In this document: in pieces, positions 5,987 through 9,129 of the stretch
Numbering within the stretch: position 1 is the first letter of the stretch
Layout: every line of letters starts with the position of its first letter
Assembly (NCBI RefSeq): GCF_900182935.1
Contig: NZ_FXUE01000003.1
Location: 310,001-374,000, forward strand
DNA length: 64,000 bases
From: Fibrobacter sp. UWB10
GTDB taxonomy: Bacteria; Fibrobacterota; Fibrobacteria; Fibrobacterales; Fibrobacteraceae
Direction of reading: 5' to 3'
Position numbers and translations under genes: made by a program
Notes under the pieces: model-generated
The model's database searches: none
What the model was told of the DNA's origin: nothing
What the model saw: only the letters and a program-made list of their open reading frames with translations

Positions 5987-7051
5987 CTAGTCCGTCAGAA
6001 CTTGAAGGTATTGCGTTTCCATGTAGAGCTTTACCTGGTCCCCCGGGTTGTAAATTTCGTCGGGGTCGGTCATCACGCGGAGTTGAGTCGGCTGATTTCC
6101 GTTTGCTCCAGGTAGTTCTGCAATTAATTCCCAGTAGTCGCCACGGAAGATTCTCTCTAGAATTTTGGCGTCAAATACGTTGTTTGCAAAATTTTCGCCG
6201 GCCGTGCATACATGAATGTCTTCCATGCGAATGGCGACTCCGCCAGTTTTCCAGGCGGGAGCCTTATCGACTGCAAGTTCGCCGAAAGCGGTTTTCACAA
6301 AGAAGTCAGATACCTTTTCGCATTCCAGAATGTTTGCTTCGCCAATGAACGTTGCAACAAAGCGATTGACCGGATGTTCGTAAACGTCTTCGGGACTTCC
6401 ATCTTGGATGATTTCTCCGTTGTACATTACAAGCACACGATCGGACACTGCAATTGCTTCGTCTTGGTCATGTGTGACCATAATGAACGTGGTGTCCGTC
6501 TTCTTTTGAACTTCCTTGAGTTCGGCCTGCAATTTCTTGCGCAGGTTTGCATCCAGTGCCGAAAGCGGTTCGTCAAGCAACAGAATGTCGGGCTCATTCA
6601 CCAGAGCGCGGGCGAGTGCTACACGCTGCTTTTGGCCGCCGCTCAAGGTGGCGGGCATTTCTTTAGCGAGGTCGACAATGTTGGTAATCTTCATCATCGC
6701 ATTTACGCGACGTTCGATTTCCTCTTTGGCGACCTTCTGGCTTTTAAGACCGAAGGCAATGTTGTTGAAAACGTTCAAGTGCGGGAACAGAGCGTAGCTC
6801 TGGAACACCGTGTTAATCGGGCGCTTGGCCGGAGAACGTCTCGAAATGACCTTGCCTCCAAGAATCACTTCACCGGCGTCGGCTTTTTCAAAGCCAGCGA
6901 TAATGCGGAGCAGTGTCGTCTTGCCACAACCCGAAGGGCCGAGCAGTGTTACGAACTGACCGTCTTCAATAAAAACATTGATGTCTTTTAGAACCGCTTT
7001 ATCGCCAAAGCTTTTCTTAACGCCTTTAATCTGTAAGTCGAAAGATTCCAT
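5987..7051 (-). CDS. potA: Polyamine ABC transporter ATPase PotA
   Basis: A 354-residue ATPase. Walker A is GPSGCGKTT (38-46), then Q-loop FQSYALFPH, signature LSGGQKQRVALARAL, Walker B ILLLDEPLSALD, and the switch MVTHDQDEA. The C-terminal ~110 residues form the TOBE-type regulatory region (GGVAIRMEDIHV). It powers uptake through PotBC. It starts eight bases after the aminotransferase stop, so the five genes probably form one transcript. Confidence 0.92.
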   Translation of the reverse strand: MESFDLQIKGVKKSFGDKAVLKDINVFIEDGQFVTLLGPSGCGKTTLLRIIAGFEKADAGEVILGGKVISRRSPAKRPINTVFQSYALFPHLNVFNNIAFGLKSQKVAKEEIERRVNAMMKITNIVDLAKEMPATLSGGQKQRVALARALVNEPDILLLDEPLSALDANLRKKLQAELKEVQKKTDTTFIMVTHDQDEAIAVSDRVLVMYNGEIIQDGSPEDVYEHPVNRFVATFIGEANILECEKVSDFFVKTAFGELAVDKAPAWKTGGVAIRMEDIHVCTAGENFANNVFDAKILERIFRGDYWELIAELPGANGNQPTQLRVMTDPDEIYNPGDQVKLYMETQYLQVLTD

Positions 7052-7059
7052 ACGCCCGA

Positions 7060-8361
7060 CTACGAATGCAGGTATTCTACAATCGCGTCGTGAATCGTGG
7101 TGAACACTTCGCGCAGTTCTTCTTCGTCTTCTTCAAGGAGCGTCACGCGGAAGCCCTTGAGGTCAGTGCAGAAACTTGTACTCGGCACAACGCAAATGCC
7201 CTTCGCACCTAACAGGTAGTAAACGAAGCGGTAGTCCAGGTTGTTGGTCTTGCTGCACCATTCTTCCACTTTCTTCTTGATAATCGGATTGTCAATCTTC
7301 AAGGTCTGGTGGCTGTTCAGCGTTCCTTCACGGAAGATGATGGTGTTGTAGAATGCACCGTAGGTCGGGTTGAAATACAGTTCCGGAATGTCCGAAAGGA
7401 TTTCGTTGATGATGGCGCTGCGGCGGCCAATCTTTTCGTTCAAGGCCGTGCGGTGTTCCATAAAGCGCGGATCACCCAGCACGCGCGGAATCGTCATCTG
7501 CGGGAGCGTGGTCGAGCAGACTTCCACCATCTTGGCGTTATCGATAGCGCGGCAGAAGGCGTCAAACTGTTCGTCCTTGTCACGGTTGTAGTATTCAGCC
7601 CAACCGCAACGAGCGCCCGGCCACGGATATTCCTTAGAAATACCCTTGAGAGCGATACCCGGAACGTCACCGATGTATTCGGCGAGAGCGTAAGCGTGGG
7701 CTCCATTGTACGTAATCTTGTTGTAGATTTCGTCGCAAATAATGAACAGGCTGTAGCGCTTTGCAATGTCAACAATCTTCTGGAGAATGTCGAGCGGGTA
7801 AACCATGCCCGTCGGATTGTCCGGGTTCAAGATCAGAATGCCTGCAATGCTCGGGTTGTACTTCACCTTGTTTTCAAGTTCTTCTAGGTCCGGATACCAG
7901 TGGTTTTCCGGCTGCAAGCGGTAGGTAATCGGGGCCGTGTGGGCGTGTGCCGCTTCGGCAGAGCTATGCGTGCTGTAAGCCGGGGCAGGTCCGATAATGC
8001 GGGTGTTCATCGACAAAAGGCTGTAAATGGTAGCGATTGCGTCACCGAGGCCGTTAAAGAACACGATGTCGTCCACGTTAATCTGTGTGCCGCCGAGTTT
8101 GTTGTTTTCTTTCACCAAGAATTCGCGGGTTTCGAGCATACCCTTAGACGGGCAATAGCCATAGCTACGGTTCGTGCGGGCGAGGTCAACAACGATATCT
8201 TTGATCCAATCGGGAATCTGGCACTTCTTTTCAATCGGGTCACCGATGTTTTCCCAGTGGATGGGGAGGCCGAGTGCTTTGAGCTGGTTTGCCTTCTTCA
8301 CGATTTCACGGATTTCGTAAGAGAGTTCCTTGGCACCTTCGCTCAATAATCTTCTGCGCAT
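7060..8361 (-). CDS. Class I/II PLP-dependent aminotransferase
   Basis: The 433-residue protein has the fold-type-I layout: a SYGYCPSKGMLETREF segment, the ILNPDNPTGMVY motif, the cofactor-binding strand IICDEIYNKITY, and the Schiff-base lysine in KGISKEYPWPGARCGW, followed by the substrate-carboxylate arginine near the C-terminus (FRVTLLE). It resembles alanine/aspartate-type aminotransferases, but the amino donor cannot be read from sequence. It is the first gene of the potABCD operon, an unusual partner; a link to amino-acid or polyamine nitrogen balance is only inference. AGGAG lies upstream of the ATG. Confidence 0.85.
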   Translation of the reverse strand: MRRRLLSEGAKELSYEIREIVKKANQLKALGLPIHWENIGDPIEKKCQIPDWIKDIVVDLARTNRSYGYCPSKGMLETREFLVKENNKLGGTQINVDDIVFFNGLGDAIATIYSLLSMNTRIIGPAPAYSTHSSAEAAHAHTAPITYRLQPENHWYPDLEELENKVKYNPSIAGILILNPDNPTGMVYPLDILQKIVDIAKRYSLFIICDEIYNKITYNGAHAYALAEYIGDVPGIALKGISKEYPWPGARCGWAEYYNRDKDEQFDAFCRAIDNAKMVEVCSTTLPQMTIPRVLGDPRFMEHRTALNEKIGRRSAIINEILSDIPELYFNPTYGAFYNTIIFREGTLNSHQTLKIDNPIIKKKVEEWCSKTNNLDYRFVYYLLGAKGICVVPSTSFCTDLKGFRVTLLEEDEEELREVFTTIHDAIVEYLHS

Positions 8362-8382
8362 TTTTAGCTCCTGTGGAGTTGT

Positions 8383-8438
8383 CGAAAATTCACTTGTTTT
8401 ACGGCGTAATTATAGAATAATAAAATCGTGAATTTTCG
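8383..8438. promoter_or_regulatory. Inverted repeat pair bracketing the aminotransferase-pot promoter
   Basis: CGAAAATTCAC (8383-8393) and its exact complement GTGAATTTTCG (8428-8438) are 45 bp apart centre to centre. Between them, on the minus strand, lies a good -10 (TATAAT, 8409-8414). One arm falls near the expected -35 and the other in the early transcribed region. This looks like a two-site operator rather than an RNA hairpin, since only one arm would be transcribed. Confidence 0.5.
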
Positions 8439-8478
8439 TTTAATTTCTGGTTTTGGGGTTAGTTTTAGGTATAAAATT

Positions 8479-8504
8479 AGGGCAGCCATTTACGGGGCTG
8501 CCCT
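8479..8504 (-). terminator. Terminator after the 36-residue ORF
   Basis: A perfect 9-bp stem AGGGCAGCC/GGCTGCCCT around an 8-nt loop. On the minus strand it is followed by AATTTTATA. It lies 27 bases after the stop of the small ORF and upstream of the aminotransferase promoter, so it separates the two units. Confidence 0.75.
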
Positions 8505-8530
8505 TGAAACTTTTTATCTGGATTTTAGCG

Positions 8531-8641
8531 TTACGCTTTACAGATTTTGGTTTCTCTGGACAGCCCCACAATAGCTCGGGCTGCTGCCGGGCTTGCTGCT
8601 TTCGCTGCTGCTGCGATGTTCTGTCCAAAGATTTTGTTCAT
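8531..8641 (-). CDS. Putative 36-residue alanine-rich small protein
   Basis: A short frame beginning MNKIFGQNIAAAAKAA and ending in SRETKICKA. It is basic and Ala-rich, with a single cysteine near the C-terminus and a likely amphipathic helix. The coding claim rests on context: a consensus TTGACA/TATATT promoter ends exactly six bases before the ATG, and a strong terminator lies 27 bases after the stop, giving a compact ~165-nt transcript. It could instead be a small RNA whose frame is accidental. No family recognised. Confidence 0.5.
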   Translation of the reverse strand: MNKIFGQNIAAAAKAASPAAARAIVGLSRETKICKA

Positions 8642-8647
8642 GGCCTA

Positions 8648-8677
8648 AATATACTTTCAGTTATGCGAAATTGTCAA
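8648..8677 (-). promoter_or_regulatory. Strong sigma70-type promoter of the small ORF
   Basis: On the minus strand TTGACA (8672-8677), an 18-bp spacer and TATATT (8648-8653). The ATG follows after TAGGCC, so transcription would start at or next to the start codon. Confidence 0.7.
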
Positions 8678-8709
8678 GGTTTAGTGGGTAATTTTTTATT
8701 TTTGCAGAC

Positions 8710-9129
8710 ATGCTCCACGATATGCTTTACGACCCCATTCGCCAAAAAGAGGTGCCCGCTACGCCCGAAGAACACGTGCGTCAGGCGACGATTCGCTTTT
8801 TGATGGACGAGGTCAAGGTGCCGCAGAATTTGATAGCGGTGGAGTTTGCGCTTTCGACGGTGGAACCTTCGACAGATGACCGTGTTGATTTGCTCGTGCA
8901 AGATTTCAAGGCGTCTGGCGATTTAAAGCACCCGTGGCTTTTGGTGGAATGCAAGGCTCCTGGCGAATACACTTGGGAGGCTTTGCAGGTGCAATTGAAT
9001 AAGTATTTAAAGGTGCTTACGCCCAAGTACGTGATGCTTTCTTTGGGCGATGCTGTACGCTACTTTGCGCTGGATGCAACCACCAAGCGCTTCAAGAAGA
9101 TTGAAAAACTGCCGGAATTTACGGCGTAG
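8710..9129 (+). CDS. HsdR N-terminal-like nuclease-fold protein
   Basis: The 139-residue protein matches the stand-alone type I restriction R-subunit N-terminal fold: EEHVRQATIRFL, then DDRVDLLV (catalytic-type Asp), and LLVECKAPG (the E-x-K of the PD-(D/E)xK core), followed by a Q..KYL helix and a strand-turn C-terminus. Many bacteria carry such short proteins outside restriction operons and their role is unknown; the active-site residues look intact. It abuts the convergent xseA with no spacer. No Shine-Dalgarno is visible. Confidence 0.7.
   Translation: MLHDMLYDPIRQKEVPATPEEHVRQATIRFLMDEVKVPQNLIAVEFALSTVEPSTDDRVDLLVQDFKASGDLKHPWLLVECKAPGEYTWEALQVQLNKYLKVLTPKYVMLSLGDAVRYFALDATTKRFKKIEKLPEFTA

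Follow-up and report, generated by a model that had tools for sequence, protein, structure and literature searches.

The window analysed in this study is a stretch of 64,000 nucleotides from Fibrobacter sp. UWB10 (contig NZ_FXUE01000003.1, positions 310,001 to 374,000). At positions 8531-8677 of the window, a first-pass annotation had described a promoter, an ATG at close spacing, a 36-codon frame and a terminator with a 9-bp stem, and each of these was found where it had been placed, on the minus strand. The description of the peptide as Ala-rich and basic was also correct. Two points had been overlooked: the unit lies upstream of the gene at 8361..7060 (minus strand) and reads towards it, and, given the distance from promoter to ATG, its transcript is expected to begin on the ATG or directly beside it. 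Since both are on the minus strand, the unit is placed as the upstream leader of this gene. The right-hand neighbour (8710..9129, HSDR_N_2 domain) points away from the unit. The features of the locus, in the direction of reading, are as follows.

8648..8677, minus strand: leader promoter P1, TTGACA-18-TATATT (TTGACA at 8677..8672, TATATT at 8653..8648).
8531..8641, minus strand: ORF of the leader peptide, 36 codons (MNKIFGQNIAAAAKAASPAAARAIVGLSRETKICKA), with 11 Ala codons, probably leaderless; the ATG is at 8641, six bases past TATATT, and the TAA at 8533..8531; the frame is kept in 62/62 leaders.
8621..8631, minus strand: region 1 (UCUUUGGACAG), near the start of the frame, pairing with region 2 (helix 1:2).
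8594..8614, minus strand: first tract of Ala codons, codons 10-16 (GCA GCA GCA GCG AAA GCA GCA), the stall site proposed from codon content.
8550..8567, minus strand: region 2 (GGGGCUGUCCAGAGAAAC), towards the end of the frame, pairing with region 1 or region 3 (helices 1:2 and 2:3).
8516..8545, minus strand: small hairpin (AUCUG/CAGAU) whose loop contains the stop codon; 88.8% of cells paired.
8494..8510, minus strand: region 3 (GUUUCAAGGGCAGCCCC), past the stop codon, pairing with region 2 as antiterminator or with region 4 as terminator (helices 2:3 and 3:4).
8504..8479, minus strand: stem of the intrinsic terminator, made of regions 3 and 4, with a 9-bp stem, an 8-nt loop and a T-rich tail.
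8473..8487, minus strand: region 4 (GGCUGCCCU, or GGCUGCCC plus a U tail), pairing with region 3 (helix 3:4).
8383..8438, minus strand: candidate second promoter P2, a -10-like match (TATAAT at 8414..8409) within an 11-bp inverted repeat (arms 8383-8393 and 8428-8438).
7060..8361, minus strand: the putatively controlled gene, a PLP aminotransferase (NCBIfam NF005334), assigned by profile match and solved relatives.

The promoter and terminator pieces taken singly were weak, and lay within the range of shuffled sequences: the pattern scan gave three promoter-like sites versus 1.6 expected from shuffles, and three terminator-like sites versus 3.6 expected. The RNA fold of the unit was 4.45 standard deviations more stable than that of shuffles, none of 200 being equally good, and a DNA match to the unit was present in 41/61 genomes of the genus, 37 of them spanning at least 80 nt. 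Thus DNA conservation and fold stability raise the unit above the chance level. Three of the 41 matches were only 26-31 nt long and one was cut by a contig end; the remaining 37 were analysed further.

In each of the 37 genomes whose match is extended, the aminotransferase gene was located downstream on the same strand, and the opposite flank varied. The regions upstream of this gene were then taken from 116 genomes of the phylum (76 from the genus and 40 others). A short leader ORF was present on the same strand in 62 of the 116 regions, comprising 58/76 Fibrobacter genomes and 4/6 of a sister genus; the remaining 34 upstream regions, from further genera and families within the phylum, yielded no leader frame. 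The relatives named by GTDB are Fibrobacter MAGs, many of them labelled F. succinogenes. A search ahead of the gene in 22 outgroup loci, mostly from Bacteroidota, likewise turned up no Ala-rich leader. A covariance model built from 54 leaders and run over 167 whole genomes of the phylum found 62 strong matches, all with E at or below 6e-25, and the genomes that hold them are exactly those picked out by the ORF-based search. Of its ten weak matches (E between 4e-4 and 0.01), two are leader remnants that again precede the aminotransferase gene. Each of the 62 leaders precedes this gene and shares its strand. Therefore, the compact unit proposed in the first-pass annotation holds insofar as promoter, translated frame and terminator go together, but it is not a free-standing gene.

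The aminotransferase gene was found without the leader in 17/76 genomes of the genus, and the region of one more (G039) was cut by a contig end. Among the 17 is a genome of the same species, in which the entire leader is missing and the aminotransferase gene is intact. In three genomes (G012, G027 and G040), just a terminator-like remnant of the leader is left. The leader thus seems to be lost as a unit, judging from these sequences. Two loci (L021 and L025) have a common upstream flank and differing leader variants, suggesting recombination at the leader. A multi-copy or mobile element was considered and rejected: the own genome has one DNA match to the unit, and its second covariance-model match is weak (E 0.0014).

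The frame of the leader is conserved. Among the 62 leaders, the start codon is ATG in 57 and GTG in 5, and the stop codon is TAA in 48, TAG in 10 and TGA in 4. The distance from the start codon to the anchor takes nine values, every one of them a multiple of 3, and the non-coding spacing from the stop codon to the terminator takes 12 values with no such rule. This evidence is partly circular, as the leader search itself demanded an in-frame ORF; in the DNA-based set, which is free of ORF selection, the frame is present in 37/37 extended members. The first-pass annotation had named substitutions that ignore the codon structure and break the fold as a sign against the unit. Frame and fold were both kept, but the count of synonymous and non-synonymous changes did not discriminate. 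In the 3' part of the leader, 10/31 changes were synonymous in frame 0 (6.7 expected) and 10/29 in frame 1 (6.3 expected). The count therefore does not single out the frame, which is expected if RNA pairing dominates the 3' part.

The -10 element lies 7 nt ahead of the start codon in 57/62 leaders, 6 nt in the window and 8-9 nt in three, with one unscored. With the start codon only about 7 nt past the -10 element, a leaderless mRNA is probable. The pattern TTGMC-17/20-TATWTT-6/8-ATG matches 14 sites in the own genome; at eight of these it begins a frame of at least 140 codons, which suggests that ordinary genes share the layout. At three loci (L269, L274 and L275), a promoter-ATG layout of the leader type starts a frame of about 278 codons with a further long frame behind it; the three look similar and are candidate leaderless genes of Fibrobacter.

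Ala codons make up 30% of the leader codons (9-15 per leader) versus 7.4% in 25 long ORFs of the window. The choice of Ala codon is also shifted, with GCA accounting for 432/670 leader Ala codons (64%) versus 22% in the same 25 ORFs. In 62/62 leaders, the first Ala codon comes 2-4 codons past region 1, and in several of them additional Ala-rich stretches are inserted in frame. According to a model of attenuator sensitivity in the cited part of PMC1183508, an attenuator can be sensitive only when one specific synonymous codon is used and control codons make up a large share of the codons. No Pfam or NCBIfam family matched the leader peptide.

The helices 1:2, 2:3 and 3:4 are mutually exclusive as predicted from the sequence, and 1:2 and 2:3 overlap the ORF. 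Their conservation was assessed in 54 sequences, the 62 leaders less near-duplicates. Helix 1:2 was paired in 95.8% of cells, with 8 cells changed on both sides; the antiterminator helix 2:3 in 93.8%, with 16 such cells; and the terminator helix 3:4 in 97.1%, with 11 such cells, although the independent compensatory events are few since these changes come from few clades. As a control, helices slid by 1-3 columns were paired in 26-66% of cells. The hairpin around the stop codon, with 8 cells changed on both sides, is weaker than the other helices, and is perhaps an RNA polymerase pause hairpin. In the Fibrobacter clade with MNKIFEQNIIAAAIAAGAAEARACVKSCATVQEL, GGAC/GUCC becomes GAAC/GUUC in helix 1:2 and GGCUG/CAGCC becomes GACUG/CAGUC in helix 2:3, a compensatory change from GC to AU in each; the sister genus carries GACUGUCC/GGACAGUC. 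The same clade has a 10-nt frame-changing insertion, which swaps the C-terminal half of the peptide and leaves the helices in place. It is thus the RNA pairing, and not the C-terminal peptide sequence, that is conserved. The suggestion of a membrane- or nucleic-acid-binding peptide in the first-pass annotation is not supported; a regulatory RNA was the other option that it listed.

The downstream aminotransferase scored 694.7 bits against NF005334 (cut-off 443). Among solved structures, its best matches were AlaA of E. coli (4cvq; glutamate-pyruvate aminotransferase; E 1.1e-40) and 1xi9, a putative transaminase. AlaA is a distant match, and the enzyme may be one that makes alanine. Ala codons ahead of an alanine-transaminase-like gene are the arrangement to be expected of a classic attenuator. 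A -10-like match at the P2 site was present in 74/76 genomes of the genus, whether the leader was present or absent. With the P2 candidate just before the gene, the expression controlled by attenuation would come on top of a baseline. The inverted repeat at 8383-8438 (CGAAAATTCAC / GTGAATTTTCG), which flanks TATAAT, occurs with or without the leader; its arms vary between genomes and often still match each other, and it is a candidate operator or hairpin. A gene for a PotA-like ABC ATPase (5987-7051, minus strand) begins 8 nt past the aminotransferase gene, with permease-like frames behind it. A leader serving a polyamine-transport operon was rejected, as the PotA-like gene follows the aminotransferase gene in just 9/80 named loci.

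The own genome contains a second candidate leader of this kind. At C1:100664-100848 (minus strand), a putatively leaderless frame (MMNFVTTATLNRRWWRGL) of 18 codons with tandem Trp codons is followed by a terminator and then by trpE. Its -10 element lies about 7-8 nt ahead of the ATG, akin to that of the Ala leader. A DNA match to the trp leader was present in 33/41 genomes of the genus, although some matches were short. When 20 trp loci were read, the tandem Trp codons were kept in 20/20 and trpE was downstream in 19/20. The trp leader before trpE serves as an internal control for the Ala leader, and Fibrobacter thus appears to use regulation of this kind more generally. A crude leaderless scan, which is blind to other layouts, found no leader for hisG or for two leuA-like genes in the own genome.

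From these observations, we consider it very likely that the unit is a ribosome-mediated transcription attenuator that senses the supply of alanyl-tRNA and controls the alanine aminotransferase gene. RNA polymerase would begin transcription on the ATG or directly beside it, and the leader peptide would be translated without a Shine-Dalgarno sequence. If charged tRNA-Ala is scarce, the ribosome would stall on the Ala codons, mostly GCA, past region 1 and cover region 1; regions 2 and 3 would then pair, the terminator would be blocked, and transcription would enter the aminotransferase gene. When charged tRNA-Ala is in good supply, the ribosome would move on to the stop codon, helix 1:2 would form, and the 3:4 terminator would end transcription. 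The second promoter near the gene probably supplies a baseline outside this control.

To model the ribosome on the leader, a footprint of 15 nt before the P site and 12 nt after the A site was assumed. With this footprint masked at the first three Ala codons, 186/186 cases were predicted to form the antiterminator before region 4 exists. In the full-length RNA with the same stalls, the antiterminator was the minimum-energy fold in 136 cases, and the terminator still formed in 50/186. With the ribosome at the stop codon, the full-length RNA was predicted to have the terminator in 57/62 leaders. The folds without a ribosome were ambiguous, giving the antiterminator in 54/62 before region 4 and the terminator in 47/62 at full length. 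In a codon-by-codon scan, predicted stalls from the start codon to about 13 codons past region 1 led to the antiterminator. The fold model thus agrees that the position of the ribosome decides the fold, without singling out the Ala codons. Since stalling anywhere in the range given above is enough, the specificity for Ala rests on the codon content and not on the fold.

The latter point bears on a second reading, in which the unit is a ribosome-mediated attenuator with another trigger, either a general slowing of translation (antibiotic or ribosome stress) or an amino acid such as Ile, the second commonest leader residue (10.7%). Non-Ala stalls in the same stretch also yield the antiterminator in the fold model. 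However, Ala is the residue in excess and is strongly shifted to GCA, the tract grows by more Ala-rich insertions, the downstream gene is AlaA-like, and the trp leader of the same genome couples Trp codons with trpE; we therefore regard another trigger as improbable. Slightly less credit still is given to a free-standing small RNA or peptide that acts in trans and lies near the aminotransferase gene incidentally. Its own promoter and terminator would give a transcript of about 165 nt, and in the cited part of PMC7298713 the attenuator transcript and peptide of Sinorhizobium peTrpL also act in trans. Such a product would not be expected to keep to the same gene and strand in 62/62 cases while the other flank changes, to pair the 5' arm of its terminator (region 3) with region 2 as well, or to have the peptide C-terminus replaced in one clade. 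A ligand- or protein-binding leader (a riboswitch, T-box or similar) with an untranslated ORF would fit the strong conserved alternative RNA structures, but it is most improbable, given that frame, start and stop are kept across nine lengths and that no catalogued Rfam leader or riboswitch, T-box included, matched the window at its gathering score, the lower matches in 8360-8760 being at chance level.

The ribosome-mediated attenuation proposed above is a known type of switch. The ribosome-mediated attenuators of amino-acid operons given in the cited part of PMC1183508 are those of trp, his, leu, thr, ilv and pheA. The Fibrobacter leader resembles them in its short ORF rich in the product amino acid, three exclusive helices, an intrinsic terminator and a biosynthetic gene downstream; unlike those listed there, its control codons are for alanine, and no Rfam leader matched it. 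It also resembles the trp attenuator rnTrpL/peTrpL of Sinorhizobium meliloti, whose transcript begins with the leader ATG and is leaderless according to the cited part of PMC7298713; that system differs in sensing Trp and in its demonstrated action in trans. The trpE leader of Fibrobacter shares with the Ala leader the close spacing from -10 to ATG, a short frame with control codons, a terminator and a biosynthetic gene; it differs in its 18 codons and tandem Trp.

In the titles and abstracts of the open-access literature, no alanine attenuator and no attenuator of any kind in Fibrobacter was found, and the word 'alanine' was not found when the main texts of PMC2965389, PMC1262725 and PMC1183508 were searched for it. 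The sensed amino acid was therefore not found described in the open-access literature searched. The cited part of a 2010 survey states that leader-peptide systems had not been shown beyond Proteobacteria and Actinobacteria until its own case in Firmicutes (PMC2965389). We think it rather likely that the unit is the first alanine-sensing ribosome-mediated attenuator and, together with the trp leader, a sign of a general regime of leaderless attenuation in Fibrobacterota, with the start about 7 nt past the -10 element; that the GCA-reading tRNA-Ala is the sensor; and that the leader is gained and lost as a cassette atop a constitutive second promoter.

Ribosome-mediated attenuators are known for only some of the amino acids. 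If true, the Fibrobacter case would add alanine to the range of specificities, widen the taxonomic spread of the mechanism and, its mRNA being probably leaderless, broaden the modes of initiation as well. Moreover, the leader codons may double as annotation, pointing to an alanine-making role in Fibrobacter for the poorly named NF005334 family. In this rumen bacterium, a ribosome on a tiny Ala-rich peptide would decide whether the downstream gene is transcribed.
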